DNA from: Actinernus sp. WN-2022
Taxonomy: Eukaryota; Cnidaria; Anthozoa; Actiniaria; Actinernidae
Direction: 5' to 3'
Assembly (NCBI GenBank): GCA_030867875.1
Contig: JAOWCC010000936.1
Span: 79,889,032-79,953,031, forward strand
DNA length: 64,000 bases
Of this stretch, positions 14,901 through 56,900 are shown one piece after another (within the stretch, counting starts at the first letter, position 1; each line of letters begins with the position of its first letter). The notes under the pieces were generated by a model. That model saw only the letters and a program-made list of their open reading frames with translations. It searched no databases and was not told the DNA's origin. Made by a program: the position numbers and the translations under genes.

Positions 14901-17900
14901 TCATGCAGGCGAACTCAAAAAGGGTAATGACTAGGTACTTATTGACTGACTGGGAGGGCCGGATGGGAAAATATTGGGCTCGAGGTCATGACGTACAGAC
15001 CGAGCGCACGTACAAAATGACCGAGAGCCAAGTATTTTCCCGTCCGTCCCGACCTAACTCAGTCAATAGGTTTTTTATCATATGACCATATTGTTTTGTA
15101 GATCAAACCGCAAAACAGCAAGAAAAAAATGTGCAGGGCCGGACGGCTTTTTCCGGCCCGCTCACGCCATACACGTCCGGCCCTCATCACGTGACTTTTG
15201 TAAATGGTTTTGAAAGGAAAGCGCGCGCGGGGCCGTACGGGTAATATGATAAGAGGCTATACTGGTAATACAAAGTACCCAGCCTACTTCAGAGGCCTTT
15301 GAGAGAAATTCACGCACGTCGCATGTCGATTTTTACGGAGGGAGGAAAACCCGAGAACCCAGAGAAGAACCTTCGGCGCATGGGTGAGAATCAACAAACT
15401 CAACTCACAAATGACGTCACGTCCGGGAGTGGAACCCAGGCCACAGTAGTGAGAGCGAGCGGTTAACACGCTGTGCCACCCAGCTCCCCAGCTGAGGGGA
15501 ATTATTGATTGGCTGATCTGTTAGACTTACTGTTTCCATTTCAGCTTTTAGTCGATTTACTTCAAGAAGGGAATTGTTGAGTGCCTGCCTCGTGTTGTCT
15601 TTGTCGGCCGTTAGTTCTTGGATATAACCCTCCAGTTCCACGATTCTTGAGTCTGAAACCACAGACACACGAGAAAAGTTATGAAATGAATAGTTCAATG
15701 GCCTTATTCTACTGTATTTCATTGCGCTGAAACCTAGTCAGCCTTGTCACCTCGAGGACAAACCGAGTCAGCCTTGTCACCTCGAGGACAAACCGAGTCA
15801 GCCTTGTCACCTCGAGGACAAACCGAGTCAGCCTTGTCACCTCGAGGACAAACCGAGTCAGCCTTGTCACCTCGAGACTAACCGAATCAGCTTTGTCACC
15901 TCGAGACAAACCGTGTCAGTCTTGTCACCTCCGAGGGCAAAGCGCGATCAAGAGAGGCAAGGATTTTAGGACAGCTGTTTTTTAACGCAAAAACTAGATC
16001 GTTCAGATCTTTACTGATGGAGTTGGAACGAGTATGAAAATTGAAACAGGAAACAGTCGGATTGAGAAATAGGTTGCCTGGTTGACAAGGGAAGAACAAG
16101 CAGTTGCCTCAGTTTAAAAAAGGCAATCAAACTGGGAAAGGTTAAAACGCGCTGGAAATTGAGATACCGCGAGAATCGAATTCAGAAAAAGCAAGCCACA
16201 GCTTCCCATAACTTAGTGCGCCATTTTTTATTGTAGACTTTACAACCACAGTACAATATAGGGAATGTTTTTGATTACAGCGGATTCTTGTTTGTTTCCC
16301 AGCAACCATACTACCCACCCCACTCCACCGCTACCCACTCCACCGCTACCCACTCCACCGCTACCCACTCCACCGCTACCCATTCCACCGCTACCCATTC
16401 CACCGCTACCCACTCCACCGCTACCCACTCCACCGCTACCCACTCCACCGCTACCCACTCCACCGCTACCCACTCCACCGCTACCCACTCCACCGCTACC
16501 CACTCCACCGCTACCCACTCCACCGCTACCCACTCCACCGCTACCCACTCCACCGCTACCCACTCCACCGCTACCCACTCCACCGCTACCCACTCCACCG
16601 CTACCCACTCCACCGCTACCCACTCCACCGCTACCCACTCCACCGCTACCCACTCCACCGCTACCCACTCCACCGCTACCCACTCCACCGCTACCCACTC
16701 CACCGCTACCCACTCCACCGCTACCCACTCCACCGCTACCCACTCCACCGCTACCCACTCCACCGCTACCCACTCCACCGCTACCCACTCCACCGCTACC
16801 CACTCCACCGCTACCCACTCCACCGCTACCCACTCCACCGCTACCCACTCCACCGCTACCCACTCCACCGCTACCCACTCCCCGCTACCCACTCCACCGC
16901 TACCCACTCCACCGCTACCCACTCCACCGCTACCCACTCCACCGCTACCCACTCCACCGCTACACGTTGACAGCTGTTCCACTGCTCACCCTGCTCGTCT
17001 TGATTCGCCTCTCCCTCGTCATCGTTACTCGCTACCTCTGCAGTTGAGATCGGACTAGCTCTTCTCCCCAGCACCTTCGAATTGCCAACTCCTTCTTTAG
17101 AGAGATTATTTGTTTTCTGGGAAAGGTATAATGAGAGAGAATAAATAACGTACCAATAAATTCCAGATTCGGATCCTGAAAACTAAACTGTGGTTTAACA
17201 AACCTGTTCAGCGTTATTCTTCCCATGTCTTCTCACTGCTCTGCGTCCGGCAGTCGGTACAGGAAGCTGTGCCCCTCGCCTCTTGTTTCTCCTCAGTTCC
17301 ACATCGTTAGTACTCGATACGGTAGCTATATCTCTCTCGTGGGGCCGCTCCGTTCGCAGCTGTTCTTCTAGATCAGCCTCCCGTCTGGCGACTTCATCTC
17401 TCAACTTACTGAGTTCGGCTTCAAACTCTTCATGATTGCGCTTGGTCTCAGAATATTTCTAAGGACAACACACAAAATGAAATGATACGAGAAACAGAGA
17501 AGCTAGGGTATATGTTAGTCCCTCTACTTGTCAACATTTACCTTGTTCTCATGCTCCAGGTCAGTCATGACCGTGTGTTTGGATTCGATGATGGTCTGCA
17601 GTTCAGTTTTCCGATCTGGAAATGAGGTTCAGAGTGAGAAGTTGGTCAAGATAGCTATTGGGGATAAAAATACTTATCAGAAAAGCCGTACGCTAGAACT
17701 CGCTCGTGGGAAGGAATTATTAGTCGGTTCTAAGGCCAGTGCCACACTACGGGAAGACGTTCTGCTCCGCTCGCCGATGGAGTTCAAATACAAGCTTCCG
17801 AAGAACTTAGAAAACTCACAGCGAATTACAAATTAAGAAAACCTAAACCTGTTAAAGTCTTAGGTTAAGCTTTAAAGTAGCTTTGTTTTTCGCGAAACTT

Positions 17901-20900
17901 TTCACATACGTTCCTAAAATTAGAAACAGGGGTGATTGCCTGGGCTCATCATGCACATGCGCGTGAGTCATTGCAGCTATAATGTCCAATTACCAGACAA
18001 ATCCTGTTCCATATTAATCAAGTGTTGTTCCAGCGCCTCTTTGTCCTTGCTAACTTTCAAGACTTCCTTCTTTGTCTCTTCTACTTCACTCTGCAGCTGT
18101 CGCATCTCCAAAGACGTTTCGAAGACTACTTGTTCTTGAGAACGCGTCTCCCTGAATAATGTTTGACACACTGTAAATAAGCTCAGTATATTATAAAACT
18201 ATCTCACAACAGAAACGTTTTCTTACCAAGCTGGACAAAAGGGTGATACACAACAGTTCATACTAATAAACACGGCGAAACGCACGCTCTAATTGGTCGA
18301 TAGCCATGATCTGTTAGAGTACAGAAGCACAGATGACGTCACAAGGTCACACATGCGCTCTATTATATATTGATACTATAAACACGGCGAAACGCGCGCT
18401 CTGATTGGTCGATAGCCATGATCTGTTAGAGTACAGAAGCACAGATGACGTCACAAGGTCACGCATGCGCTCTATTATATATTGATACTATAAACACGGC
18501 GAAACGCGCGCTCTGATTGGTCGATAGCCATGATCTGTTAGAGTACAGAGGCACAGATGACGTCACAAGGTCACACATGCGCTCTATTATATATTGATAC
18601 TATAAACACGGCGAAACGCGCGCTCTGATTGGTCGATAGCCATGATCTGTTAGAGTACAGATGCACAGATGACGTCATGCATTGCATGAAGCCATTATTT
18701 CGCACCCTTTTTTCGCTAATTATTGTACAAAACAAATAGATGTTATTTTGCCGCACTGTATTGTCCTCTAAAAGATGAACAGGTGACGTCACGACGTGAA
18801 GAGAACAGTCTGAGTCACGTGACGAGAACATCAGTCACGCCACTCGACTGCGTATCGTGATGTACTTCTTTGTTCTCGTCACGTTGTGACGTCATCTGTG
18901 CATCGATACGCACGGCTAAATGACAGCTGTTAGTTAAAACTATGTCAGGTCTCGCGTTATCTCCTTCCGCTGTTTCTTTTGCTCTCTTCGATGTTGAAAG
19001 CTGCGTTAGACTTAATGATAAAGGTTGAGGAACATTGAAATATTGCGATTATCAGATGTTTTCCGCTCTTTTTCAAAACCTAGTACAGATATAAAAGTCG
19101 GGGAACCAGGTCATCACTTGTAGCCACTTGAAAAACATCTTAAATACTAATCTTTTTTGCCTCATAATTTCTATCCATGCATACATCCATAACCATCCAC
19201 ATCCCAGCTCGCCCCTTTACTTTTACTGACATCGTGTGTTCGTTCGTTTGTCTGTAATGTGTCGTTCTGTGTTTTCATTTCTTTTTGCGCTATATATTTT
19301 CTTTTTTTCTTTTCCTTGTGCTTCTTCATTGTACCAGTAAATATGCAGTTTCTTTTTGCACATCATACGCACAAAACATCCGCACGCCTTTTGCACTTGT
19401 ACTTTATAATGGCATCCTAGCTAGATTAGCTCTTTATAGTTATTCTAGGGTGCCTGTACCTTTCGTTATTAGTAACTCGTACATTCTCTCCAAAAAAAAA
19501 ATGTACAAATGAAAATATTGTTGAGATGGATTCCTGGACGCGGCGCCACATGTGAGCTGAGTTTATTATGATTCTCACCCAGGCCCCGAGGGTTTGCTCC
19601 GAGTTCTCCGGTTTTCCTCCCCTCATAAAAATCAACATGTGAGTTGAGTGCTGAGTGCAGAGAATATATGAATGTAGTAAGAAGTGTGTATGTGGAATGA
19701 GTCTCGGATACATTAGCATATCATTCATCCGAGGATAAACGAGATTTTTTAAGTCGAGAGAAAAGCTTTCCCTACCTTTTGATACTCTCGAGATCATCTC
19801 TTGACGTTCTTATTTCCTCTACTAGTCGTGATTCTCTCTTCATCATCTCCTCAAGTTGTTCAGTTCGTCTATTCCTCTCCGTTACAGTGTCATTTAGTGC
19901 TTTTTTCTCTTGTTTAGTCTCCATTCGAACCTTCTCCAGCTCATCCGTGACTTCTTTTATGCTGTCCTTAACGGAGCCAAGTTGATTTTCTTTGTCGGAT
20001 ATCTGAACACACAAGTTATCAAGTTCTAGTTGTTTTAAGTTATTTCCATCCTCGTATTCCTTCAGCTTTTCATCCTCTTCTTGTAGTCTTTCTCGCAGCT
20101 CTAGTAACTCCTCGCGATGTTTCCTCAGTGCTGTTAAAGCATCGTTTCTTGCCTCGTGCACTTCCTTCAAGCGCTCATTCGTTTCCTGAAAAGAGATTTT
20201 TTTAAATCAAATTGTATAAGCACAATATTTCATCAACTCAAAGTTGGTGAAAAACGAGGTGCGGCCATGTTCTCGTTATAGATTCTTCATTCCTACAAGT
20301 AAGCTTCCTAAATAAATTTATGCTCTTGGAGCAAACGCGGAAAACATATCTGTCTAAAGAAAATCAAACTAATTTAAGCATAAATTACTTCTGAGTCCGC
20401 GCCGATTAATTAAGTTCAACATTTTCTAAAGTTCTTCTCGTTCATTACTGTTCAATTCAAATTATCCTACCTCGAGCACATTTGCCTGGTATGATCTTTC
20501 CTCTTCTCTCCTCTTCGCCAACTCTTCGATCTCTTTTTCTTTCTTTACCATTCCCGTCTCTAGATCACCCAAAGCCTTCCTGGCACGTGTAATGTTCGTG
20601 TTCAATTCGTGATATTCTGTGGTCTGTTTCTGGAGTTCGTTACGTGTTCTGGCGAGCTGTGAGGTTCGTTCCTCTACGATTTTCTCTCCATCCTTCAAGG
20701 CGCTTAACCTTCTTTCTGTCTTTGCTTGTTCTTCTTTTTCAGTCGCCGTGACAGCCTCCCGTAACTCTCCAAGTCTGATGACAACAACGAGTTACCGACG
20801 TCATCATCATCATCATCGGTATCATTATTATCATCATCATAATCATCTAAGTTTTAAATGTTTTGAATGTGCACACTACAGTACGGTCACTTACTTAAGA

Positions 20901-23900
20901 GAAAGTTTCAGCCTTTCTTCAATGTCAACCAATCTTTTTCCCTTGAATTCCAGTTCTTCTTTCTTGCCCTCTAAGTCGCTATTAATTCTTTCCATATCCT
21001 GTTTTGTCTTGTTGTACGACCGTTCGGTCTCCAACAATGCATTCTTTTTTATTTCGATATCCTACAAATATAACGAACAATGATTAGTGCATTCACATAT
21101 CACCCAACATTCTGCATGGGCGTTCTTGTTACGAGTACTGTTCACAATATGACCACAGTTCCACAGCTCCTCCCCCCCCCCAAATAAAATCCACTCTTAT
21201 GACTCCTGGAGATCACTGTAAATAGCATTTCAAAGTCTCTAGATTGCAAAACATATATTTTTTAGTTAATTACCGTGGTAACGTTGAGATGGTTTAGCTT
21301 GTCTGTCATTCTTCTTGTCTTCAGTTCACAGTACAGTAACTGATGTTCTGCCTGTATTCTATAGTTGTCAAGTTAGTACTAGAAGCATAGCATTACCGTG
21401 TTCAGTTGGTTTAGCTTGTCTGTCATTCCTCTTGTTTACAGTACAGTAACTGATGTTCTGTCTGTATAGCATTACCGTGTTGAGATGGTTTAGCTTGTCT
21501 GTCATTCCTCTTGTCTTCAGTTTACAGTACAGTAACTGATGTTCTGCCTGTATTCTATAGTTGTCAAGTTAGTACTAGAAGCATAGCATTACCGTGTTCA
21601 GTTGGTTTAGCTTGTCTGTCATTCCTCTTGTTTACAGTACAGTAACTGATGTTCTATCTGTATTGCATTACCGTGTTGAGTTGGTTAAGCGTGTCTGTCA
21701 TTCCTCTTGTCTTCAGTTTACAGTACAGTAACTGATGTTCTGCCTGTATTCTATAGTTGTCAAGTTAGTACTAGAAGCATAGCATTACCGTGTTCAGTTG
21801 GTTTAGCTTGTCTGTCATTCCTCTTGTTTACAGTACAGTAACTGATGTTCTATCTGTATTGCATTACCGTGTTGAGTTGGTTTAGCTTGTCTGTCATTCC
21901 TCTTGTTTACAGTACAGTAACTGATGTTCTGTCTGTCTAGCATTACCGTGTTCAGTTGGTTTAGCTTATCTGTCATTCCTCTTGTTTACAGTACAGTAAC
22001 TGATGTTCTATCTGTATTGCATTACCGTGTTGAGTTGGTTTAGCGTGTCTGTCATTCCTCTTGTCTTCAGTTCCAGGTTCAGTAGCTGGTTCCCAGCACG
22101 TATCAACTCTGCTGAGGTCTCAGAAGCTCGCTGTTCAATGTAGCTTGCGTCTTCCTCAGCTCGTCTCAGTCGATCCTCGCTTCTTTTGCACTACGTTGAA
22201 CAACACACAAGATGACAATAAACACAGTAACAGGAGTCCATTACCTGGAGCGTCCATCTGTCATATATTCGTGATACAGCGTTTTCCCAGACCGAGTTAT
22301 TTTTAGATTTCACTTCTCGTTGTTCACTTTCATCGTGGCATGTTGTCAACAAAATACTCGTTAGCTTCTCGTTTGGTTAACCCGACAACGACTGCAACGT
22401 CATTAATCATTTGAATGAAAAAATACACAAACACTTGTGATTGCTAGCGGAAACCGAACCCGCTGGAAACGCATCCTAAAAATAACCTGTAAGGACGCTA
22501 CATCATATGGGAGATGGACACTCCGGGTAATGGGCTCCTGGCAGAATTTTTTTTTTAAATTTATCTTAGTTTTGACTTTTTTTTAGGAGGGGGGAGCGGT
22601 TTAGATTTTATCAATCTCAAGAACACGAAAAACGCTGATTTTTAAAGGAAATATTCAGTTTGAAACCCTTATGAAACCCTATAAAACATGGCTTTCGCCA
22701 TGGAATGCCACCATATAAGGTAATCAATGACTCACCTGACCTATGACATTATCCAGTTCCTGCCTGCGTTCCGCCAGGCTAGCGGAAACCTCTTGTAGCT
22801 CCATGCGTCGTTTGCTCAGTATGCTGTCAATGTGAGTGAGCTCGTTGAGCCGATACTCGCGGTTTGCCTCCAACTCAGATTGAGAAGGGCGGTGCGCAGG
22901 GAATGCTGGGTGGCTTGGCTCGTCACCATGAGTGTCGCTAGGTTTGATGTGAAATGAGTACTGTTATCATATGCAAGAACCGGCTAAATGCGCAGTATAT
23001 AGCATTCGAGGCGTGGAACGAGGTGACTGTCTCTATCAAACTGAAAACTCGTCACGCAGATTTTATAGTCGTCATTTACTTCAACATTTGGGTGTGACAA
23101 ATATATGATCGCTTGGCCATTACATCAGCTTCCTTCCAGAAAGCAGTTTTATTTTTATTTCCGCAGTTTTGTATAGCAAAATGAATAGTCTACGAGCTCA
23201 GTTATTCTGTAGTGAAATTCCATGGGATAAGCCGGAAAAAGTCATCTGATTGGTTGAAAACTGTTTTCTAAAACTCTATGTAAACATGGAAAGTTGCGCG
23301 CGCTCTTGGGCTAGTTGGGAGAATTTACGTTTTGATTTTCAAATTGAATGAGCGTTCCCATTTTGTTATTTTATGAAGGGATTTTTTTTTTCATAGAAGA
23401 ATTCGAAATAGCAGTGAAAATACTCGCCCTTATATAGGGCCCGTGTTCTCACAGCCATTTCTCGTTCTCCAAAACCTCCACTCGCGTTTCCATTACTCCA
23501 CTCGTGTTTCCATTACGCAAAACGGTAAATGTTTTCAATGTCTTAACTGGAAAACCAGGCGAGATGAACGAACTAGGAATAACGAAGAACAGTAAACAGT
23601 TTGTCAGCTGCTGTTACTATACCTGTACTGTAGATACTGTGCCGGGAAGCCACTCTCAATGTGCGGATGCGCAGTTTCACTGGGTTGAACGTGTTCTGGG
23701 GACTCCTATCGACCCAACACAGGTAGTTACACCGAGTGGGACTACAGTATCCATTGTAAATAACGCATTCCAAAGTACAAATCCTAGTATATACAGGCGA
23801 TTTTTTTCATTCAAGACTTCAGAATTAGTCCACCGAATTCGCCTTTTAGCGGCTCGAGGCTCGAGCAAGTCGAAATGCTATTGTCTTGTACTCGACACTG

Positions 23901-38900: not shown

Positions 38901-41900
38901 GAGTGCGTAATTAACCGAGCCTCGTTTTCATGTCTCAGATCACTTAGAGCCGGTGTAACAGGAGATCGATTCCGGCCAGGAGATTGGTTCCGGCCAGAAC
39001 CAAATCGGGTAGGAATCAAAATCGTGCTACACCGGCTCCACATGGCCCTATGAACGTGACAGCACGGCTTTGGTTGTGTTGATGAATTAAATTCTAACAC
39101 CTAGCTATTATTTGTCTTAGCTTAATCGCAAACTGTAAAATGATCACCATTAGCTGTGTAAAGAATCTAAAACAGATAAATTATCAAATCCGCAGTAGTA
39201 CTCTGTCTTTTATAGCACTGTGATATAACTTTATACCAGATGGGTTTAGATTCGCGTGGAGTAGATAGGGGCAAGTGTGTTTGCGGGGAGTGCGCCACGC
39301 GAAGAAAAGCGAAGCTGTGAAGGAACCAGCAGTAAATGACAACCAGTACACCTCCAAGCAGGGGAGCTTCAAGGCCTAAATGGGAAGATGAATCCCTTGG
39401 ATGGATCCCTGCACCAAAGGATGATTACCCGCAGTACTCAAACAAAAAAGGGTGACCCTCCCCCTAAAATAAAAATAATAAGGATGACCCTTCAGAGACA
39501 TTGCATTTTGTTTCGATGACCCTCCCCCCAAATACTCCAGCCCACCCTCCCTCATTAAAAACGTACACTCCCTTACTAGTATGGCTAGTAAATCACATGC
39601 CCTGTATAATTTAGATTTCGTTGCTGAATCACCGCAAACTGCGCCTCACAATAACGATAATGTTATACATTACTGAATTATTAATTTTAAATACAGATGC
39701 TTTTAAATAACAATGATATGGACACAACATATTTAGATTTTTACTTCTATATCAGTGTTAATTTTAAATAGTTAGTTTTAACAATATTATATAAAGTTAG
39801 CATTTTAATGTGAAATTTGTATATAGTTAACTAGTTTATTTTAGTATTATATATACACGACCCCACAAGCGGTAAATCTTTTATCGTGTTTAAATAAAAG
39901 TTATTGTATTGTATTGGTAGCCCCAAGCTTTATAAATGGCAATGTTTAATAGCATTTGTATGGGATTTTTATGTCTTCCAGTTTCAACGTGTTGCTTTTA
40001 GTGAGATTCAAAAGATGTTAAAAGCTAGGCTTTAGGGGAAAAGACTCATTTTACCACGTGTAAATACCACAGCCTTTGGAATACACTCATTTACTTTATC
40101 TGCTACTCCCTACACGATACCACCCAGACTGCAGCTAAACAATAACAGTATTAAATTACACTAACTTACCATTTTCAACATCTGTCTTATTGATAGTGTA
40201 TATATTCTTTCATTCCTACTGTTCAATAGCGCTAGCCGTTTTGCTACTCTTGAATCAGAGTTGAAATAAAGTTATGATGATGGAACGTGGGGTGTCTTCT
40301 TGTGTTCCTGAGCTATGTCTGTGCCAATTTTCAGCGAATTTCAGCAAAGTTTTACCTAACAACCCCATTATTTTATAAAGACTATAAATCCCACACAAAT
40401 GATATTAAATATTGCCTTTTACAGAGCTTGGGTTACCTGTGATTTAAGGAGATTGCTGATCATACGTTTGTCGAGGTTTATACGATATTTCGGCTGGCCA
40501 ACACCAGCCTTCTTCAGGTTTATTTTATTTCATTTATTATTTAAGGAGGCAGTAACCAACATATGAAGTTTGCGCTCAGCCTGTCCAATATTTCTGACTA
40601 CTGGATCTCGTATGCCAGAGAGCAGCGAAAAAAACGATGCAGCACACGGGAAGAGAAAGGGAAGTTTGTCTGCCTTCAACACATCTACGATGTTCTATGA
40701 TGTCTAGAATAACAGGGTGACAACTATAAGGACGACTGTTTCGGGAGAACAGCAAACATTTTGCGGGAATCTGAAGCCGAAACTGTCGGGAATCGAGAGA
40801 TACAAGGAATTTTGTGAGAAATCACTGATACTACTGAAATTTCTGCGGGAAATGCACAATTATTTAAAAAATCGTGACGAACAGGCTTTGTTAAAGCTTC
40901 CACCTCCCACGACACAATACCTGAGCCGTCATAACCACCCCCCCTGCCCACCCACCCCTCTTCCTCCGTCACAATACCTGAGCTGTCTCGGCCTGTTGTG
41001 TTGTTACTGTGAGCATTCCTTCCAGGCGTCCTACCTCGTACTCCTTCAATATGAGAAATATTAAAAGAACACTGAGTAACGGCAAGGTATTCACACTAAG
41101 GAATCAAACATGAAAATGATGACGGCAGGAAAACAGTTGACAGAAGAGAAACGATATAGGTTGGGTTGCGGGATTCCCACACATTGCACACACCAATTCC
41201 CACACATTGCACACACCAATTCCCACACATTGCACACACCAATTCCCACACATTGCACCCACACATTGCACCCACACATTGCACACACCAATTCCCACAC
41301 CAATTCCCACACATTGCATACACCAATTCCCACACATTGCACACACCAATTCCCACACATTTCACACACCAATTCCCACACATTTCACACACCAATTCTC
41401 ACATATTGCACACACCAATTCCCTGACATTTCACTGACCAAGAAGCATTTTTCCAAATTTTCAATCGTTATTTTGAGACAGAAACATTTAATAGAATACC
41501 TCAGAGAAATAAGTATGTAAAGCCTGAAAATAAACATTCCGACTTTTCAATGAAATTTGGGATTTCCCTGGATAGTCTCGTTCACAGCCGTTATTTGTGT
41601 CGTCACGCAACGTTGCAGCGTTGTGTGACGACACAAATAACGGCTGCGAACGAGACTATACCCTGGTTACCAGAGGGTATACTGCTGGCGGCGCTTTGGC
41701 TTAGAGAGGGCAGTAGAATCTCTGGCACACAAGGTACGAATTCAATGACCAAATCCTAAATTCCCTGACCTAAACCCTAAACCCTAACCTTTCCCCTGAC
41801 CGTGGGTACCCTGAGTTGTGAAATGGAAAAGGACTGGCTGAAATTCTACTTTTCCAATAAGATTTATTTTTACACCTAAAATCAAGATTTGAGTGGAATT

Positions 41901-44900
41901 AGAACTCAGATTTGAGTCACAAACTCCTTTCTATAACGAGGTTTTCGTATGTGTACACAGTGGGCAAGATAATGACATACGATCACACTGAACTCGGAAA
42001 TGGCTTTCCATTGTCTTTCTAGCCCAATCAGATCGCAGACTTGCGCTAAAGAAAGAATACATAGCGACTGCGCGGCTATTTTTTGCAGTATTTCTTTCAT
42101 ATCCCTACGTCATCCATAATCTCGTTCCCAGACTCTCTCATCTAGGACTATAAATCTAATAACCAGCTGATTCTACCCCTGCACTTCCAGTCTGAATTAG
42201 CCAATCAGCGCCGTTTCGGTCACATTGCCAGTAGTTCCATTTATCGGTTTGTTCTCCGCAAATTTCAAACCGGCGGACATGCAAGCGTACTCAGAGAATA
42301 TCGTTTAAAAAGGGGGTAATTGTTCATCGTAATTTACTTTTTTGAATGAAAAAGTCACTTTGAGTAAACTCTAAGACTCTAAGGATCTAGATCTACGGCC
42401 AACTGACGTCTTCAATTGGAATTGTTGGCTTTGACAAATTGCTTTGCAGGGCCGACTCAGCTGAAAGGAGTATGAGAGGAGTCTGGAGACAAATGGGCAA
42501 AGCGCTAGCAAGCAGGGATCCCCTCACCAGGTCCCCGTGCACGGCCACATTACAGAACGAGTCATGTGCGACGTCCTTGTTCTTTCTTCTCTTGGACCTC
42601 TCGAGTCCATCATAGTGATGATGATGAACAGAACTAGGGGACACAGAGGGACCAACCACCGTGGTACCTAATACAGTGGGGCTCACAGGTGCTTCTGTAT
42701 TTAGGCCTGTTGCTACCTTTGAGCGTCTTCCATCTGTGGTAGAAACAAGCGTATAAAACACGACTTATCATCATATCTCATGCCTGGGCGCGAGACGAAC
42801 AACGGACCGAAGACAAAGCAAGTATTAGAGCTTTTCTTGATCACACCATTCATCTGTCGCTACCAGCCCTTCATTTGTTTCTGTTTTTGTCTTGAAGTTA
42901 TTATGGATTACCTGTGGCAAATACACAGCCGACGAGCAGTACGACGACGGGCGTTATGCAGCAAGAGAGATGGACCTTATCTTCGCTCGCGCTTAGCGTT
43001 CATCATACAAGAAAATTAACAAAAATGGAGGTCTGTATTGCGTCACAAGGAATGTTACGTCCTTTTCCATCATGGTTTGCTCCCGTTACAAGCAGAGACA
43101 ACTACTTACGTCGGCTCTCCTTCTTGAAGTGATGGTGATGATGAACCTCCCCTGGGGTCGTCACCAGGCTGCTATCCAATACACCTGGCGCGACCGATAC
43201 ACCAGGCGTGGTCACTACTCCTGTTGTTGCTAGTCCCGGCGCCGTACCTGCCATGGGCGTGGTTAGTACACCCGTACCTGCCATGGGCGTGGCCACATAT
43301 CCAGTGGGAGTACCAGTTCCTGGGTAAACACCTCCCTGATGATACCCATGGACTAGGGCCTGTACCTGCTGCTCTCGGTCACGTAACGCGGCTCGTAGGG
43401 CTTCCACTTCACTGGCGAGGGACGAAAGGCTGGGCCCTGAGGAGAACCGCAATGTCGTCAAGTGAATGCTATGCGATAAATCACAGTTATTAACGATCAC
43501 CCCAAAAAATGTAGGTCAAAAATCATACGAGTGATTACAACATTGCATGACCACGTAACGGGAGTGCAATTTCACGGACAAAAATTGCACTCCACTCAGT
43601 TCTATTTCCACTTAATAATATCCATTTTGAAATCTAAACTCATTGCACTCAAAGTTCAAAGAAAAAGTTCATAGCAAAATAAATGCTGCCAAATGTTTAT
43701 GATTTGTTTTTGCTGCTCCATTTGATTGGTTGGTTTGTAAGGTTCCTGTGTTTTCGCTGGTTCAGCAAAGTGTGCGATCACAGACACAGAAAGATGCGTA
43801 ATGACACTATTTTCAACCAATCAGATTGCAGAAAACCCCAGGGATTTCAATATGGATATAATTAACCGATAAATTCAACCCATAGTGAGAGAGATCAGTA
43901 CTTCCCGAACAAATACATGTCTAGAAACATTCAATCAGAGACATGTGACCTTTATCAAGCTGCGGTCATGCTACGTCCCGGGAGAATAGAAACCTTTGTT
44001 CTTGCACTTCTAACCTCGACACAGAGACGAGGCTGGAAGTGCAAAAGCTATTGTTTATAGCCATGGTCGCAGAGTGATCATGCAAGATCTATTGAAGCTA
44101 TAAACCAACCATGTCCTGTGGTATAGTCGACTTGTGGTGTTACGGATTGAGCCAGGTATTCCCTCAGCCGCTCGAGCTCAGCATTCTGTGTAGCTAACGC
44201 TGACGCCAAGTTACTGATCTCGTCACGCTGAGGAGCTGCCAAATAATAGTAACCCTTATCTTAACGCCATAGTGTATAACGCTAACAGCTTGTGGTGTAT
44301 AATAGTTACCCTTATCTTAACGCCATAGTGTATAACGCTAACAGCTTGTGGTGTATAATAGTAACCCTTATCTTAACGCCATAGTGTATAACGCTAACAG
44401 CTTGTGGTGTATAACAGTAACCCTTATCTTAACGCCATAGTGTATAACGCTAACAGCTTGTGGTGTATAATAGTAACCCTTATCTTAACGCCATAGTGTA
44501 TAACGCTAACAGCTTGTGGTGTATAATAGTAACCCTTATCTTAACGCCATAGTGTATAACGCTAACAGCTTGTGGTGTATAATAGTAACCCTTATCTTAA
44601 CGCCATAGTGTATAACGCTAACAGCTTGTGGTGTATAATAGTAACCCTTATCTTAACGCCATAGTGTATAACGCTAACAGCTTGTGGTGTATAATAGTAA
44701 CCCTTATCTTAACGCCATAGTGTATAACGCTAACAGCTTGTGGTGTATAATAGTAACCCTTATCTTAACGCCATAGTGTATAACGCTAACAGCTTGTGGT
44801 GTATAACAGTAACCCTTATCTTAACGCCATATAGTGTATAACGCTAACAGCTTGTGGTGTATAATAGTAACCCTTATCTTAACGCCATAGTGTATAACGC

Positions 44901-47900
44901 TAACAGCTTGTGGTGTATAATAGTAACCCTTATCTTAACGCCATAGTGTATAACGCTAACAGCTTGTGGTGTATAAATCAAGTTAAACAGTATAAGAATC
45001 TCAGTTAACGAGGAGGCAAATCGACTGGTTATTTACAAACGTGGTCGTGCGCACGGGGAATCGAACTCAGCGTCCCTGGATTACCGCCGTGTTAACCTGT
45101 ACACGCGTTACTATTTCGTTGTTTCTGTCCAACATACGCATAAGTAATGCATTCATCATTAGCTGTACTTTTTTATCTCTCACCTCTGAGTAGAATAAGC
45201 GCCGCTAATGATCAATATATTACTGCGAATGTTGCTTATGTCGCGCGTCGCTAGTGAAAACCACCCTTAAGGCCTACCCTTCACTTTTGCTTTGATAAGT
45301 CCCGTAAAAAACAATGACAACTATTCTTGTTAGCCATAGCCTTACGCGCTGGTCTCGCGGCGATTTTAATAACCGCAAGCCTTGTGCAAATAAAAAATGT
45401 TAGAATATCCGAAACTGCACAAAACACATATGCATTGCAGAACTTCGCTCAAGTAATGCATGAGTGATTATTTTCACCTCCCCCCAGGCCAATGTTCTCA
45501 CCCACTGAAGCAGCATCTCTTGTTCCTCGTCTCACGTGACTCTGGAGCTGTTGGTCCTTAGCATCAAGCAATGCTTGTAATCCTGCTATCTACACAAGGA
45601 TCGAGTTTACTATTAGTTGTCTCTACCTAACAAGTATGAATTTTAATTTTTCTAGCCAACGGCTCCATGACAAGTGAGACAAAAGCAGTTCCTGGTGTTA
45701 TAATAATTACATCACCATACAACGTCTCCATAGAGCGTTCTCGCTGACATCACTGTTTCCATGACGACTGCCATGACGTCGTCATCATTATGACCTTAAT
45801 TGTGAACTTCGAATTTATGCTAACCAGCATCGTCACTGCGTGTAAGCCCTGAAAAGAAGTATTTATAAACAGTGCACGAACTCATGTCAACTCGTACCTG
45901 TTGTTGGGCATCAGCGAGCTCCTTCGTAGCGATGGCCTGTGCTTGTTCTCGCCACTGCTCTGCTCTTAACGCGTCTAAATCTTTCTCGTACTTGTCCTTA
46001 AAGTTAAAGAAGAAATAACAGTGATCAATACTTAATACCACTTCATTTCTTGTTTTGTAAAATATTTGGGTGCTGCTTACCCTTAGTGCCTGGTTCTCAG
46101 CGTCTTTAAACATTTTCCTAAGCTCATCCATCTGATACTGCAAACCTCTCATCTGGGTTTGTTGTGCGTTGTCTCGCACTGTACCGTTCTGTTGGTAAAA
46201 ATACCACTATCAAGGACCAAAGGATTGTTCTCCAAGCTTATTTTAGTAAGAATGAAATATGTTCTAAAGCTTACCTGCAGCAGTCGACTCTTTTCGTCGA
46301 GTAAGGATTGTAAAGCCGCGTTCTGTTTGTCTGCCTTGTCCAGCTGTGAAGAGTTATACGTTACTATTTAACACTGGTGCAAACAACTGAAAGGGGAGCC
46401 GGGGTGGCGCAGTGGTTAACCGCTTCGCCTTTCACCTCTGTGGTCCAGGTTCGATTCCCGGACGGGGCGCCATATGTGAGTTGAGTTTGTTGGTATCTCG
46501 CCCTTGCTCCGAGGGTTTTTCTCCGGGTTATCCGGTTTTCCTCCCTCCGCAAAAACCAACACGCTAAATTCCAATTCAATTGGATTAGCCGGGACCTGGC
46601 TTTGATCAGCTCCCATGGTTGTTTCAGGTCTCGTTAGAAATTCAGAGTTGAAAGCCGCCATGAGAAGCGAGTAGCAGCTGACGTTTCCAGCACTAGGCGA
46701 CAGAACACAAAGCCTGTCGACGGTAACGACATTTGTACTGTAAAGAATAAAACACTAACCTGCTCATTGTTCATGATTTTTGCTCTTTGCAGTTGATCAC
46801 GTAATGCAGCAAGTTCATCCTCCATTTGCCTGGCTCGCAGGCCCTCCAGTTCCCTATTCTTGGCTTCCTAAAAGATACAACGACATCTAGCTTATTAGGA
46901 CGACAGAAGCCAAGAGCGAGACGTTTAGTTCTTTTACTGCGCGACTACCTATGGCAGAACGAAAATAAAGCGCATTTCGTTCTGCAATGTGACTGGTTTT
47001 CGTTGTCTTAGTGGCCCCGGTAGTCGCACAATAAAGAGGCAGCGTTTGTATCCGTTCCCTTAGTTATTTAACCAGTGTTCACCTTTTGGTCAGCTCTTTG
47101 CTGCATCCGTCTCAGTCTGTCCAGCTCGTCTTCAAGCCCTTGGACTTTGGCAGCGTTCACAGCACGCGCTCTGTCCAACTAAACATCGATGAGAAAAATA
47201 ATGTCATTAAACAAGGTCCCTGTATTTCGTGTTTGCATGTGTGGACGTGTACCATTTTACTTCTTGAGTAAGTTTGCCCAGGTGATCACTACATGTCTGC
47301 AAGTCGTTGTAATTACAAACCTAACCCTAGACGACCCAAATACCATATAACTTACTTCATCGTCAGCGTTCTCTAACAGCCTTTCCAGTCTCTCGTTGGC
47401 TCGAGCCAATTCATCCTCTAATTCCTTCACTTGAGCTTCAAACTTTCGCTTGTCACGTGCGCGCTTGTCCTCCTAGAATATAAACAAAACAACAATAAAT
47501 AACGTGCACCATAATTTGCAATCTCCACACAAATGTCCACATATTACTGGCAAGCTTCAAAACAAATAACAATTTGTCATAAACTTTAGAGGTTAGTAAA
47601 CAGTACGAGAACTCTCACCACATGTTGTTCCCTGGCCTTGGCATCTCTCAGCGCGTCCTCTAGTGCTCCTAGCTGAGCTTCGAGTCTCTTTTGTTCGGCA
47701 ACATAGTCTCCATGTAAAGCTCTAAGCTAATAATAATGATAATAATAATAATAATGAATAATAATTAGTATTCTGTATCAAATGATACAGAGTACTAACT
47801 GAAAGCTAACTAGAATCCTCTATCGAATGATACAGGATACGAACATGCGAACGTTAGTATGGGGAGGTCTCACGACCGATCACTGACTTTCCCTATCCCG

Positions 47901-50900
47901 GGCCTTTCCCTATCCCTGACTTTCCCTTTCCCTATCTCGCCGAAGCGGCTCGCCATTGTATATCCGATGTACAACATTGCTCATATTGTAAATAGTACAT
48001 AGTGCTCCTATCTGAGCTTAGAGTCTCTTTTGTTCGGCAGCATGGTCTCTAAGCTGTGGGTTTAACATAACAGGTCACATATCACAATCGGTGACACGCA
48101 CAGGTGCACCACCGAAGACGCACACGCTGCACATACAGTGGGACAAAATTTGGAACTCCAAAAATTGGAACTCTTATCTAGCTCTTTAAAAGAGGCGAAT
48201 AGTCTTCACTTATTTAAAACAAACTGAGAAATATCGATATCTGTGCAAATGCCTCGTGACTAATGTATTTTATCGTGTGCAATCATTATATATGTATTTA
48301 ATATATTGAAGCGTAGTCTATACATTGTTCATGTTAAATTACTACTTTTAGGTATCTATTTTAACTGTTATCCTAGAAAGCAAGTCCGTGTTTTAAATAA
48401 AGTTTCATCAACACAAATCACCATTCTCTCCACGGCTTAGCAAAAAACACGTGTTTTTTTCGCTAACACGAAGTTAATTAGGGTGGCCCTGTGTTCCGAG
48501 ATCGAATTGTAATTTGTTTCAAGTTTCCTTAATTTTTTACACAGTTTAAAGGCGATCATTACAATACTCCAGTTTCGTATTCGAAAATTACCGCTGAATG
48601 CAATGACTACAGACGCATGTACGCAGGGTTAGCCTCATTCTGAAGTTAAACATTCATAAATACCAGCGAGAAGGTGGGCTATTCACAATACTGTGTATTG
48701 TTTTTCACCTTCTCGCTTGTATTTACGAATGTTTAATTTCATTTAGTCCAATCAGATGAAGCAAATCAGTCACGTGCATGCTCCTTTATACCTAATAAAA
48801 TCTCATCATTCTAAAAAGTTCGCGGAGGGATATGAATTCTGTCCAAGGGGGAAATGGGATTAACGATTGAGACAATGGTAAGCACCTTGCAACTCTTGGA
48901 ATTTCTATTGATGTTTCAGCTTTCTCATTGAATTGCCAATTAGGATCGACGTTTTATATAAAGAATACTAATGAACATGAAATTCTATATAAAGTTTCAT
49001 CCTAATTAAGACTTCACTGATAAAGGCGGACCCAAAGATAGCAACATGTAAACGGAACATAAGGTACCTAGATAATAAATTTTGCACTAAATTTACTAAT
49101 ATCAGCAGACTACCGAGATACACAATTTTATTTTTTATGAAGTTATCCAACTACAACTACTTGTTTACCGAGCCACTGTTTAGTTCAAACTATTAAACCA
49201 AACTCAAAAAACGTGCATTAAACTTACAAACATCCTCTTCATATTTTGTGCCAGAGTCAACAATTTAGAGTCTGCCGTCATGTCAGTCACATCGCTTTCC
49301 AAGTCTTGAACTTTATCGATGTCAACCACGACACCAAATCCTTCAAGTGCAGCTTCTTGCCCTAGCTTGTTTGCTTTCAGCATTGCGAAACGCCGCTCCA
49401 AACAACATAGTATGGTAATTTCTTCATGTCATTCCCTTGAGATGTTCGTATCGCAGGCGGTGATTACTCGAATATTTTGCATGGCGTTGTGAATACAAAG
49501 GTTCCATGGTTCATTAAGTAACCATTATACGTTTTTGAAGCCGTTTTAAAATAAACTCGCAGCACGTGTTTTATCAGGTCTAAAACTCTCGGGCGCTCTG
49601 TCAGGCCAACAATCTCCTCACTATTCCTCTCATCTACACAGAAAGGCTCTATTGCAGTTGTTTCGCGAAATATTCAAGGATAAAAGTTGAACAACGGTAG
49701 ACACTCAAATCAGCGCTTGCATCGTTCACAAGCCAGTATGAAATCTATTATGTATTATTAATTTGAAGCCGTTTCTTTTAAAATCTATTTCTAATGAATG
49801 AAAGCATGTGCTACTAATATCACACTTCCACTTTTCTTTCATTTTTATCCGATTCACACAGATCTGTGGAAGTAATTTTGATTCTACTGATTCTTTGGTA
49901 GACTGTGAACTGCTTGCTGTACTAAATTCAAACTCATTTGTTTTCGCACGTTTTTCTCGAAATGACGTCATACCATATGTCATAAGGTCCCTTTTCGCTT
50001 GGCGCGACCCAGTCACATCATATATTTGTAGGTTCAAGACTATAAGACATCCACTCAAAAGAACAACGAGAGTTACACGTCTGCAGGGACCAAAGTAGCC
50101 AAAGCTTTCGAGTTGGCAGGAGAGTTGGTCACTGCTTTTGATAAAGTATTGACAACTAAGTTGAAAAAAACAACTGAGTAGCTTAGATATAGGTTGTACA
50201 TACTTAAACATACACAAATACATATATAAACTTTACATTTGTTGCTTTTAGACGAAAAAGTGAAATGGAAATGTTATAATGCACTGACTCACCCTGTCTC
50301 CGTCTGCCTTGCTCTTTGCCAGTCTGTTCTGTAGCTGGTCCAGTTTGTTTTCCAGATTTCGTATCTTGGCTTCAAGAGGAGCACTGGCACTAGCGAGCTG
50401 TATTATGGCAAGTATTGTCATTCAAGATCGAATAATCATCAAATCAATAGAGAAACAAACAACTGACCAATTTAGTTTGTACATTTGTTGTCCCAATTCA
50501 GATCATGTGACAGCTCTCCAGAGGATTCAGTGCTTTGTTTCCGAGATCTACAAACTGATGCATTTCCTCTTGGGATACAGAAAACATAACTCAAGGAAAA
50601 TGGCAGGTGACCTGAATTGGGAAACCAAATGTACAAGCTAAATCGGTCAATAGTCCTTTTACATGATGACGTCACGTTATCACCACCAAGCCTCGCATTG
50701 GCACAACATTTCCTCAACACGAAAGTGAGGCTTGGTGGTGATGACAAAAGCATGACGTCATCACGCATAATAAGGCATATTCTACAAAACAACTGAACGC
50801 TACATTATATCAAGCATTAACGTGGGGTTCGCTTTATATCACAAGATGATCAAAACACATTTCCACTGATTTCTATGCATGCGGAAGGTATTCCATAATA

Positions 50901-53900
50901 TACACACACAACTTATGATAACAGCAACAATAAATTTACATAAATACATTACATCAGTAGACGACATGTTGAGAGGCCTGAAGTAGTATAAGACTAATCG
51001 ATTCAGGCATCCCAGAATCTATAAACTTTAAAACATTTTGTTGGGGTCAAGCAAAACACACACTACATAAATAGATTACAAATACTAAATACAAACTATA
51101 TACAGGTACATGTAAGTTCATTAAAAGGCCGGAGTATGCTGATTCATAAACACAAAATATAGATTAAAAGACGAACAGAGATGGATTAAGGTGAACACAG
51201 CGATTTTTACTCCCTCAGCGAACTTTGGCTCCCATTCAGGGGTGAAGAGAACGCAGTACTTACAGTGCTTATAGAGAGGTGATAGTAGTGAGATGCAGAG
51301 TATTTACCGCGTGTTCCATGGTATGTTGAGCTCGTTCCAGTTGTTCTTTTAGTCGCGCTATCTCCTCCTGTAGATCATCCACCTCATGCTTGTGAGCCGC
51401 TTTCTGTCGTGCGAGCTTAGTACAAATAAACAGTTTGTTACAAAGTCAGTAACGTGTTACGCAGATAACGGTCTTTAACAAGCTAAGGCTTACAAGCTAC
51501 ATTGTAAGTGCAAATATTATTTTTTTCTATTCAGTTGGTTTGAGCTTGGCATTAAGATACAGGTAATTAACAATACAGACAATCTTCACAAGGCATTTGC
51601 AATTAAATCTAACCATAGGAATGGACAATTTTTAAACAAGAAAGGATCAAGCTAACCACGGAAATGAACGATAACGGCGACTAAACAAACTTACTCCTAC
51701 AGTTATTAAAGACGAAATATTCAATAGACCTACAGTTGTATATCAAGTTTCAGCTAATTTGAACTGAAAACCTTCTACGTCTAGTTTTAGCTAATGAAGA
51801 AATGGTGCGACGATACTATGATTCTAAATAATAATAATAAACTTTACTGATTAGAGTGTCAAATGTATTAGCACATGGTATTGCTAATTGGGGCCACTGT
51901 TAATAAACCATATGTATATACTATGCACTGAGGGTGGTCACTGCCAGAGATGTGTTTCTGTTCTCAGTGGGGGCCTTTCAACGTCCTGATCCGAGAAGAC
52001 GCGAAGGTCTAACCATTTGCAACGTCCGTCAGGGCAAAGGCAGCACCTTCTCATAATTACTGTTGATCCGGCCGGGGATTTAAACCCGCGACCTCCCGCA
52101 CAACAGACAGACTGAGCTAACTGGGAGGCAAACTTCCATAATCATCTTGTAGCTAGTTTGCTAAGGTAAAACCCAGTTGATACAAGGCCAGCTCACCTCT
52201 TCTTGCAGGCCTCCCTGTTTTGCCAAGCTATCCTTCAACTTTTGCAGTTCGTTTCTGAGTTTACTTAACTGGGCGTCTTTGAGCTCATTTTCCTCTGCAA
52301 GCTAGAAAAAATGTTGATCAGTGCAAACAGTTAGCAGAAGACAGATTTTAATTTCAGGCTATGTGACCTGCCTCGTCTTCGGGTGCTCAAATAACAAGAA
52401 GCGCGAAAGTGAAATGGGTTCAAGGCGGGAACGCGAAACCCACTGCGCTTGCACTCACTCGCGCTTCTTTTCGCGTGTTTTACAAGTCATGTAAACAGCG
52501 AGTCAGTAATTTGTCTTCTCAACTGAGAGTTTAATCCAACGTAGATCTCACCATAACCGCATTTGTTTATGACGGAAAGAGATCACCACATAAATGTTGA
52601 TGGATCCAAAATCTACCTTGGGGGTTTTGATCTTATTATTCGACATGATAAAGCATGACTATTTTATTGATTTATTCCCATTTTCTTACCTTCCCCGCGC
52701 GATCATTTGCCTGTCTAAGTACGTTGCGTAAATTGTCAAGTTTGTCACTCAGTCCTTTAATTTCAGCATCCACCTGCGGACATACAAACAATCACAAACA
52801 ATTGAATATTATTTTTGCATTTCGGAACTTCAAGTACTCTCAGGAATCAGTGCAATGTATACAGTATATGTCACATCAAACGTAATTTAATGAAGCCTGG
52901 ATTTCGCTAGCGGCATAAGCACAAGAAACATAGGCAGACGCAGTGCCGTATTTATCATTAGCAGTACTTGTTCTTATTATATGGCACATGCTACTTCCGG
53001 TCAATTGGCGCGCGCTGATTGGCCGTTTAGCGGCAAAGCCTCTGTCTGTACAGAAAAACCGCGGTCTGATATTTCTCTGTACAGACCTCACGCTCGGTTA
53101 ATAAGTAGTTATTATCTCACACCTGTGGCGTGTTACTCCGTTAGGAGGTCTTTTGGCCGCAGTATAGATAGATAGATAGATAAATAGACAGTTATATAGA
53201 TAAATAGATAGAGTAGAACAAGCGCCGCTTATGATAAATACGGCACTGCGTCTGTTGCTTAGTATTTTACAGGACTGCCCATTGTTTCATTGCCGGAAAA
53301 CAACGGCCAGAGTTGTACTTATTATACACGTGTACACGTTTCATTGTGTTGGGTTTGAGAGTGACACTAGAATAGTGGTATCACAAATAGACTCGTGCAA
53401 CTCTCTATGATTTACAAGTTAAACAAATATTAGGGCCATTTATAGGACAGCAAGTTAGCCAAGGCTTGTCTAAGCCATGAACGATTCGTAGATATGGGTT
53501 AAAAACTGAAGTTCACGAATAACTGAAGGCACGGCTTATAATCTAAGCCATGAACGATTCGTATAAATGGGTTAAAAACTGAAGTTCACGAATAACTGAA
53601 GCCACGGCTTATCTAAGCCATGAACGTTTCGTATAAATGGATCAAAAACTGAAGTTTAAAAGCCACGGCTTAACGAAGTCCTCGTATAAATGCCACATTT
53701 TTGTGAACTCCGCGGCTTAGATAAGTCGCGGCTAACTTTCTCTCGTATAGATGGCCCTATTGTTACCATTGATACTAATACCCCACACCCTACAGCTTAC
53801 ATCCTACACCTTCCATCCTACACCATACAGCTTACACCTTACCGTGTCCTTGTCGACCTTTCCTCCTTGCTTCTCTTTCTTCAGAGCACCTAACATATCT

Positions 53901-56900
53901 AAATATCTGCGGTGTAGATCACCCAGTGCACCGCCCAGCTCATCTCCTTCTCCTAAGGGCTGCCGCACCTGTTCTCTGTTGTTATCCATGTCATCCTGCA
54001 GGTCACCCAGTCTGTCAAATACCTCGTCTTTGTCAAACGAGCGTTGCAGCTCGTCCTCCATCTCTTTGATACGATCTTCTAAGTCTGCGTTCTTAGCCTT
54101 AAAAGAAAACGAAAATGTTTAGGATTTAGGTTTTCTTCTGTAGTACCACTCAAAGGTGGACGGAGAACCTCAACAGACTTAAGGTACAGACACACGCAAC
54201 AACATTGCCGGCAAGATCGAGTTCTGCTTCGGCAACATTGCGCGCAACAAACTGCACCGTGTGAACAACAATTGCTGGTAATATTGCGCGCAACAAACTG
54301 CACCGTGTGAACAACAATTGCTGGTAATATTGCGCGCAACAAACTGCACCGTGTGAACAACAATTGCTGGTAATATTGCGCGCAACAAACTGCACCGTGT
54401 GAACAACAATTGCTGGTAATATTGCGCGCAACAAACTGCACCGTGTGAACAACAATTGCTGGTAATATTGCGCGCAACAAACTGCACCGTGTGAACAACA
54501 ATTGCTGGTAATATTGCGCGCAACAAACTGCACCGTGTGAACAACAATTGCTGGTAATATTGCGCGCAACAAACTGCACCGTGTGAACAACAATTGCTGG
54601 TAATATTGCGCGCAACAAACTGCACCGTGTGAACAACAATTGCTGGTAATATTGCGTGCAACAAACTGCACCGTGTGAACAACAATTGCTGGTAATATTG
54701 CGCGCAACAAACTGCACCGTGTGAACAACAATTGCTGGTAATATTGCGCGCAACAAACTGCACCGTGTGAACAACAATTGCTGGTAATATTGCGTGCAAC
54801 AAACTGCACCGTGTGAACAACAATTGCTGGTAATATTGCGCGCAACAAACTGCACCATGTGAACAACAATTGCTGGTAATATTGCGCGCAACAAACTGCA
54901 CCATGTGAACAACAATTGCTGGTAATATTGCGCGCAACAAACTGCACCGTGTGAACAACAATTGCTGGTAATATTGCGTGCAACAAACTGCACCGTGTGA
55001 ACAACAATTGCTGGTAATATTGCGCGCAACAAACTGCACCATGTGAACAACAATTGCTGGTAATATTGCGCGCAACAAACTGCACCATGTGAACAACAAT
55101 TGCTGGTAATATTGCGCGCAACAAACTGCACCGTGTGAACAACAATTGCTGGTAATATTGCACGCAACAAACTGCACCGTGTGAACAACAATTGCTGGTA
55201 ATATTGCGCGCAACAAACTGCACCATGTGAACAACAATTGCTGGTAATATTGCGCGCAACAAACTGCATCTCAACGGCATCACCTTCTACTAACTTATTT
55301 TAAGTCCGGCCTGGGTTTGAATCCGCGACCCACAGGACAGACTGGAGCTTAACTACCGAGCTAACCGGGATGTTAAAGATGCTCTGTCTACCGTGACGTT
55401 TTGTGAGGGTGTAGCTATTGTTGCATACCTTCTGGGAATAACAATACTAAAATTTACGCTTTCAAGCTCTGAATTTCATAAAAGGCATACGAAATTCGAG
55501 AGAGTTAAAGAAATCCATGTTTTGGGCGCTTTTTGATTGAGTGTCCAAAGTACTATGTGACGTTTGCTTAGCTTTTCTATTGGCTGTGAAAAATGTTGCG
55601 CAATTATCAGCCAATCAAGTTCTAAACTAAAACCAAACATTGTTTTGGTCCGTCAGGCATTTCTGTCAATCGTTTTAGCGAGTTATCCACGATTGCGTTT
55701 ACTTTTCCTCGTTACTGGTTGAAGTAAAACCAATCACGAATTACTTCAGTTCGTGACTGGTTCATTGCGTTTTACTTACTCCCGTCGACACACCGTTCGA
55801 CGTGAATAGGATTACCGTGGTATTACATCGTCTATATCTATATTGCAGGGTCTCAATACAAACTGAGGTCCACTACAAACGTCGAACTCTTCATGTGTAA
55901 ACTCGATGCTCTTAACAATAGCTTTAGTCATTAGCATTAAATTTAGTACACGAAATGTTCGACGATCGTACTGGGCCTTTATAGTGTAACAAACCCGGCA
56001 GTGAATCAAAACCCAGCCTGCTTCGGAAACACAAATGAAGCACTAGAAAACCAGGAGCCCATTACCACAGGGTCCCAAATTAACTTTTTCACGTAGGCGC
56101 CAACTGGCGACCAGCCCAAAATTGTTCAGTCGCCGAAAGACCAATTGTGGTCGCCACGTTTCAAGCGAGATGCGACAAAGAACATTGGCTGGCATGTTTT
56201 ATTGGCTAAATTTAGTTAGAACATCGTGTGACTTCGGGACAGACTTTAGGTAAAGAAGACTTTAGGTAAGTCGCCTAACTCTGAAATTTTGGTCGCCAAC
56301 ACTCAAAATTTAGTCGCATTGGCTTAGTAGCTTTTATGTAAGTTTTCTTGCTTCTTCGCGAAACATTTCACTTAAGGTTATCGTATAGCTTCAGAGCCGA
56401 ATTTTGCAAAAAAAAATTTTCGCGTAACAACAGACAAAAAGGTTTTTTTTTTTTTATCTAGACGGAGAAATATCAAAAAGAAACATCTTACCGGAAGATT
56501 GCATTACATATTTTGATTGACAGCTCATACACCACATCAATCGTCATGAGCATTCAACCGTAGCTAAGCGCGGGAGTAACAACCGTTCAGTTCGAAGTTC
56601 GCTCTGTGGCTTGTTGTCAGCGTCCTATCGAATCTTTTCTCACATAAATATGTCATCGTAAATTCGAAGCGTATTCGCTAAAATTATCCGTATATGTCTT
56701 CTTCAAAACAAGTATCTGGTCCTTGGAGTTCAAGAAAGAGGAAAAAATCAAAGAAATGTTCGAAATTATATATTCTTATTACCACGGCTAAACTATTTTG
56801 TTGTACATTAGGCCGCTTGATTCTACAATAACATGCCCAATCTCTGACATTTTCCGGAGCATATATTCACGGGCTGATTCTTCGGGTAATTTATCTGTCC

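Follow-up and report, generated by a model that had tools for sequence, protein, structure and literature searches.

A minisatellite across an exon/donor boundary in a putative centriolin-like gene of the sea anemone Actinernus

When the end of an exon and its splice donor are copied several times into the intron that follows, are the copies exons in the making, signals that act on splicing, or passengers that leave with the intron? This question is raised by exon B of a putative coiled-coil gene on the minus strand of a 64,000-nucleotide (nt) stretch of Actinernus sp. WN-2022 (GenBank assembly GCA_030867875.1, contig JAOWCC010000936.1, positions 79,889,032 to 79,953,031; the whole stretch is referred to as the window), where the intron behind the exon opens with eight tandem copies of the exon/donor boundary. 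Tandem duplications across exon/intron boundaries have been described as "mirages" in the Adh3, globin, TnC and PGBD5 genes of amphioxus, to which TnC and PGBD5 were added in PMC3902484 (PMC3087553; PMC3902484). The array behind exon B is very probably such a mirage, namely a minisatellite of the exon/donor boundary whose copies are removed with the intron and which has no selected function. A tandem duplication of the boundary would have founded the array, and unequal exchange would later have expanded it and shuffled its units. Because exon B would be defined together with its own upstream acceptor, splicing is expected to join the exon, at its own donor after 22026, with exon C at 21061. 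The copied donors, with no good acceptor suitably placed upstream of them in the intron RNA, would be removed along with it. The real consequence of the array would be the exchange of sequence between its units and the last codons and donor of the exon.

The array and its gene

The two exons, the intron between them and the units of the array (S, short; L, long) are listed below; in sequence motifs, a slash marks the splice junction.

22026..22190, minus strand: exon B, 165 nt, in phase 0 at both ends, encoding CKRSEDRLRRAEEDASYIEQRASETSAELIRAGNQLLNLELKTRGMTDTLNQLNT, with the donor ACG/GTAATG
21062..22025, minus strand: intron B/C, 964 nt, the first 752 nt being the array
21947..22025, minus strand: unit S1, 79 nt, short, 7 nt lost
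21868..21946, minus strand: unit S2, 79 nt, short, 3' end and linker with 1 difference from the exon over 57 nt
21789..21867, minus strand: unit S3, 79 nt, short
21672..21788, minus strand: unit L1, 117 nt, long, open phase-0 stretch 21731-21672, codon ACG in common with the exon
21593..21671, minus strand: unit S4, 79 nt, short
21476..21592, minus strand: unit L2, 117 nt, long, open phase-0 stretch 21535-21476
21397..21475, minus strand: unit S5, 79 nt, short
21274..21396, minus strand: unit L3, 123 nt, long, with a 6-nt in-frame insertion and then GTAATT, open phase-0 stretch 21339-21274
20895..21061, minus strand: exon C, acceptor TTTGTAG/GATATC, phase 0

The 3' end of exon B reads CTC AAC ACG/GTAATG in phase 0, and the intron behind it starts with eight head-to-tail units that run from 22025 down to 21274. 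Cut at GGTAATG or GGTAATT, the units measure 79, 79, 79, 117, 79, 117, 79 and 123 nt from the exon outward. Their order is S S S L S L S L, hence the short copies do lack 7 nt, as a preliminary description of this locus had stated, but long and short copies do not simply alternate. Tandem Repeats Finder (TRF) reports the array at 21283-21936 (period 196, score 1196) and at 21782-22071 (period 79, score 517), and a probe of the end of exon B finds eight copies with 89-99% identity over 42-70 nt. The array is far beyond chance. All eight units end in 53-66 nt of exon-derived sequence followed by GTAAT, so that the tandem unit itself spans the exon/intron boundary. The tandem amplification of exon end and donor, which the preliminary description had put forward, is thereby confirmed by TRF, unit cutting and probe alike, although the GTAATG donor that it gave to every copy follows only seven units, the last (L3) being followed by GTAATT. 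Each of the five short units holds 53 nt of exon-derived sequence, counted after CAG, and the three long units keep the full 60 nt, to which L3 adds its insertion. The linker of the long units is 31 nt longer than that of the short ones and is the only one to hold the word TACTAAC. In phase 0, the long units encode the peptides LLYCKLKTRGMTDTLNQLNT, LLYCKLKTRGMTDKLNHLNT and LLYCELKTRRMTDKLNHLNVTT, the third of which carries the insertion.

Exon B, previously numbered 27, ranks 25th among the 38 exons of the gene model built here, which is incomplete and made of internal exons only, some of them doubtful, the gene start not having been sought. Joined exons served as queries in two protein searches, over 481 and over 258 residues, the longer of which scored only the 7980 candidates that shared most words. 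Both returned the same five proteins, four from named anthozoans and one other. The "trichohyalin-like" protein of Nematostella vectensis is 51% (481 residues) and 63% (258 residues) identical with the whole region covered, 63% being the best identity among the five, which are thus from species other than that of the window, and the further named homologues are those of Oculina patagonica, Montipora capricornis ("centriolin-like") and Acropora digitifera ("golgin subfamily A member 1-like"). All four named animals are hexacorals, which places the window most probably in a hexacoral too, nearest to Nematostella among the four. The one protein fragment matched by a 279-residue stretch shares 63% identity over 35% of its length as query, and no Pfam family was found in that stretch. 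The gene is probably best described as a centriolin-like coiled-coil gene, a name taken from the Montipora record.

The homologues show that the authentic exon boundary is intact at the 5' edge of the array, as exon 22190-22026 fits all five of them without a gap. The alignment of the window protein is gap-free over the whole 258 residues, the B/C junction included, and an insert at this junction was found in none of the five, which fixes the true end of exon B and means that the stretch took no insertions in the homologue lineages. Such an alignment may still be compatible with a minor isoform in Actinernus. At the level of sequence, the mirage is thus supported by the intact exon at the 5' edge, by the head-to-tail units and by a mosaic of few variants that includes the exon end (discussed below).

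Fate of the copied splice sites

In the long copies, the preliminary description saw phase-0 pseudoexons opened by the acceptor ATCAG/TTACTG, and with them a possible birthplace of coiled-coil exons. If at least one long unit were included as a small in-frame exon, each would add 13-26 residues to the coiled coil. Splice sites were scored with profiles built on 37 sites of the gene model, from which the donor of exon B and the acceptor of exon C were excluded, and in which the exon starting at 63561 ended at 63433 (63499 was used in the repeat-boundary, pseudoexon and array counts). The reading frames agree with the proposal, since all nine candidate stretches, from three AGs in each of the three long units, are open and in phase 0, with lengths of 60 nt from ATCAG/TTACTG (66 nt in L3), 72 nt from ACAG/GCAGAA (78 nt in L3) and 39 nt from CTGAAG/ACAAGA (45 nt in L3). 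The donors of the long units equal or exceed the true donor, and the word TACTAAC, which we take to be branch-point-like, is found in these units only. The named acceptor, however, is very poor: ATCAG/TTACTG, at -3.3 in L1, L2 and L3 and between -1.6 and -3.5 in S1 to S5, scores under all 37 other modelled acceptors (range 1.0 to 14.9) and worse than most background sites, as 2374 of the 3357 non-exonic AGs of the minus strand score at least -3.3. The third in-frame acceptor, ACAG/GCAGAA, scores 2.6. CTGAAG/ACAAGA, which had not been named before, is better (6.4 in L1 and L2, 5.0 in L3), but has an A at -3, and 156 of the same 3357 AGs score at least 6.4.

Some of these results weigh against the view that the array merely leaves with the intron. 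CTGAAG/ACAAGA falls within the range of the modelled acceptors, thus score gives no ground for dismissing the 39-nt (in L3, 45-nt) pseudoexon. When pseudoexons were counted with an acceptor of at least 6.3, a donor of at least 4.85 and an open frame in phase 0, two fell in the 752 nt of the array, denser than elsewhere, both being copies of one sequence. The splice scores themselves derive from a single gene, whose 37 modelled sites may include wrong ones, and the exclusion of array copies from messenger RNA is something that we infer. On the other side, the same thresholds yielded 11 pseudoexons outside exons and array on the minus strand (0.19 per kilobase) and 6 on the plus strand (0.09 per kilobase), hence open pseudoexons of array quality are evidently not rare elsewhere in the window. 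In addition, none of the five homologues has an indel over 258 residues, and the candidate inserts of 13, 20 and 24 residues are no multiples of seven. The pseudoexon claim is unlikely on this evidence, and nascent exons are very improbable, although the open frames in all three long units and the better acceptor make them formally conceivable. Most likely, the array copies are spliced out and ignored rather than serving as new exons.

Alternatively, the copied donors could have been kept as decoys or as a regulatory array, which would bind the U1 small nuclear ribonucleoprotein, tune or slow splicing, or give transcripts with a premature stop for dosage control; a ladder of decoy donors had been suggested at the outset. 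On score, and in this limited sense, the ladder is right, as the true donor of exon B (4.9) ranks low, with 4 of the 37 other donors at or below it, and is equaled by seven copied donors (4.9) and surpassed by the last (GTAATT, 6.2). An exon B that ran on, whichever of the eight copied donors it used, would read into a stop at its residue 61, once five codons beyond the normal end have passed, which would suit dosage control but also fits copies that are ignored. The published mirages are moreover reported without disturbance of splicing, there is no sign of selection keeping the donors, and recent homogenisation would explain their identity.

The repeat load of the window bears on the same point. 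Arrays with a period of at least 10 number 36 and total 9366 nt, 17 of them being at least 200 nt long (TRF output, merged by hand), and only two touch a modelled exon, while 34 of the 36 touch none. A same-strand local repeat (E value of at most 0.01, within 600 nt, spanning the centre position) was found at 3 of 76 exon boundaries. Of positions chosen at random, 203 of 1396 outside exons and 4 of 104 inside exons had one, and special targeting of exon boundaries was rejected; boundaries tend rather to be poor in such repeats, and fewer are expected there, because each boundary probe is half exonic. By side, the boundary repeats fall on 3 of 38 donors and 0 of 38 acceptors, too few for a claim of donor bias. 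As the window is full of arrays and its boundaries are not enriched, special targeting is not needed, and the pattern would follow from a general load of minisatellites that is kept in check by selection on exons. A role as decoy or regulator is very unlikely for the array.

An artefact, with the repeat collapsed or expanded in assembly, is barely credible even though tandem arrays are prone to miscounting, as point changes, 7-nt and 6-nt indels and linker variants in irregular order are not invented by simple misassembly, an objection that covers the differences between units, whereas the copy number may still be wrong.

Array turnover and known mirages

Within the mirage, signs of unit turnover are present, as the units form a mosaic of few variants of which the exon end is itself a part. 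Distances were taken over 57 nt (39 exon-derived and 18 linker nt) for the exon and seven of the eight units, L3 being omitted for its different downstream sequence. The exon end differs from S2 and from L1 at 1 site each, from L2 at 4, from its neighbour S1 at 6 and from S3, S4 and S5 at 7; the latter three are identical to each other, and the exon, S2 and L1 lie within 1-2 differences. Being near S2 and L1 and far from the adjacent S1, the exon end is nested inside the array and would hence not be its simple founder, and the simplest account of this nesting would be repeated unequal exchange or conversion that took in the exon's own end. Concerted evolution thus seems to link the last codons of exon B with satellite DNA of the intron.

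The preliminary description had the units copy the last 45-60 nt of the exon, of which the last 45 nt are indeed nearly identical (L1, L2 and L3 differ at 1, 2 and 3 sites), but the preceding 18 nt differ at 6, 6 and 5 sites (Fisher p values, in the same order, of 0.0016, 0.005 and 0.037), the dividing line having been picked after viewing the alignment, the units not being independent and L3 being compared without its 6-nt insertion. Among the exon-derived codons, ACG (Thr) occurs in exon B and L1 only, the other seven of the eight units having AAG, and the homologues have Lys (two) or Arg (three) at this site. Unequal exchange might write array sequence back into the gene, replacing the last ~15 codons and the donor with sequence that evolved in the array, so that a neutral satellite would supply amino-acid changes. 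We put this forward tentatively and consider it rather doubtful; the Thr codon is a candidate site, a single one, at which the direction, from exon to array or from array to exon, is not readable from one assembly.

The mirages of the amphioxus globin genes lie on the acceptor side in BflGb6 and on the donor side in BflGb9, Adh3 being cited alongside; six and three units are reported from two haplotypes, and reverse transcription PCR suggests that regular splicing is undisturbed (PMC3087553). The BflGb9 mirage resembles the exon B array in that the 3' boundary of an exon is duplicated, and that of BflGb6 in unit turnover and concerted evolution (PMC3087553). In contrast to amphioxus, the host is here a cnidarian and not a cephalochordate, and the array has eight units in two classes, one with a 7-nt deletion, and a coding end nested among them. 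Normal splicing is reported for the amphioxus cases (globin reverse transcription PCR, Adh3, TnC), whereas for the exon B array it is a prediction from DNA sequence. Intron gain by the Rogers model, as reported for potato RdRp, also proceeds from tandem duplication of exon sequence that bears a splice site, but is said to give a new intron (PMC4974935), whereas the exon B array enlarges a phase-0 intron that already existed, and a new intron was not observed. The variable internal tandem repeats of human segmental duplications are likewise of minisatellite scale and can alter gene structure when at an exon-intron boundary, but they belong to recent primate-specific paralogues, and some are said to form introns via activated cryptic sites (PMC2812944).

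For mirages, it has been proposed that copied exonic parts may become real exons and create introns (PMC3087553), hence the idea of an exon birthplace is a published hypothesis for the class. No boundary-spanning array of a cnidarian was found among the matches listed from the open-licence literature, as judged from titles and the starts of abstracts, and the exon B array would be a mirage minisatellite, a known kind, in an apparently new phylum. Boundary-spanning minisatellites would then extend from lancelets to a cnidarian, with two in one window. The array does not demonstrate the making of new exons, yet with it the published proposal on the origin of new exons and introns can be put to the test in a living anemone. 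What most deserves follow-up is the clear case of a coding end and an intronic array that seem to evolve together.

Other repeats of the window

A second boundary array lies at another exon of the window.

63302..63514, minus strand: second boundary array, exon end TGACAAGAAGAAATAC with donor GTAAGA and intron, 66-nt unit in 3.2 copies, the exon ending at 63499

Judged from the exon chain, this exon would belong to the same gene. Use of the donor after 63433 would add 22 open codons to the exon without a change of frame, and the copy ahead of the donor after 63367 ends in TAA. Because the second donor adds its 22 in-frame codons without a new acceptor, it would be a more promising source of altered protein than the array at exon B.

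Minor duplications were seen at or near further boundaries. At 40910-40990, a two-copy duplication (19/21 nt) crosses the donor CTCAG/GTATTG of the modelled exon 41043-40978, its copy lying 57 nt downstream. A decayed copy of part of exon 47726-47619 stands at 48021-48049 (27/29 nt to 47682-47710 by BLAST), ~340 nt upstream and with CCCACAG ahead, and is perhaps an old duplication of an acceptor-side boundary. At 53785-53842, a degenerate 14-nt repeat with several GTAAG words inside begins at the donor of the modelled exon 54097-53843. A 56-nt array of 13 copies (44243-44976) reaches within a few bases of a likely acceptor near 44235 (TTTGGCAG/CTCCTCAGCG), whose exon is outside the model, and may supply the upstream sequence of this acceptor.

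Two very regular minisatellites lie outside modelled exons, one of 46 nt in 22 copies at 54237-55268 and one of 15 nt in 43 copies at 16314-16963, the 2-kilobase bin of the latter having a guanine-cytosine skew of -0.355.
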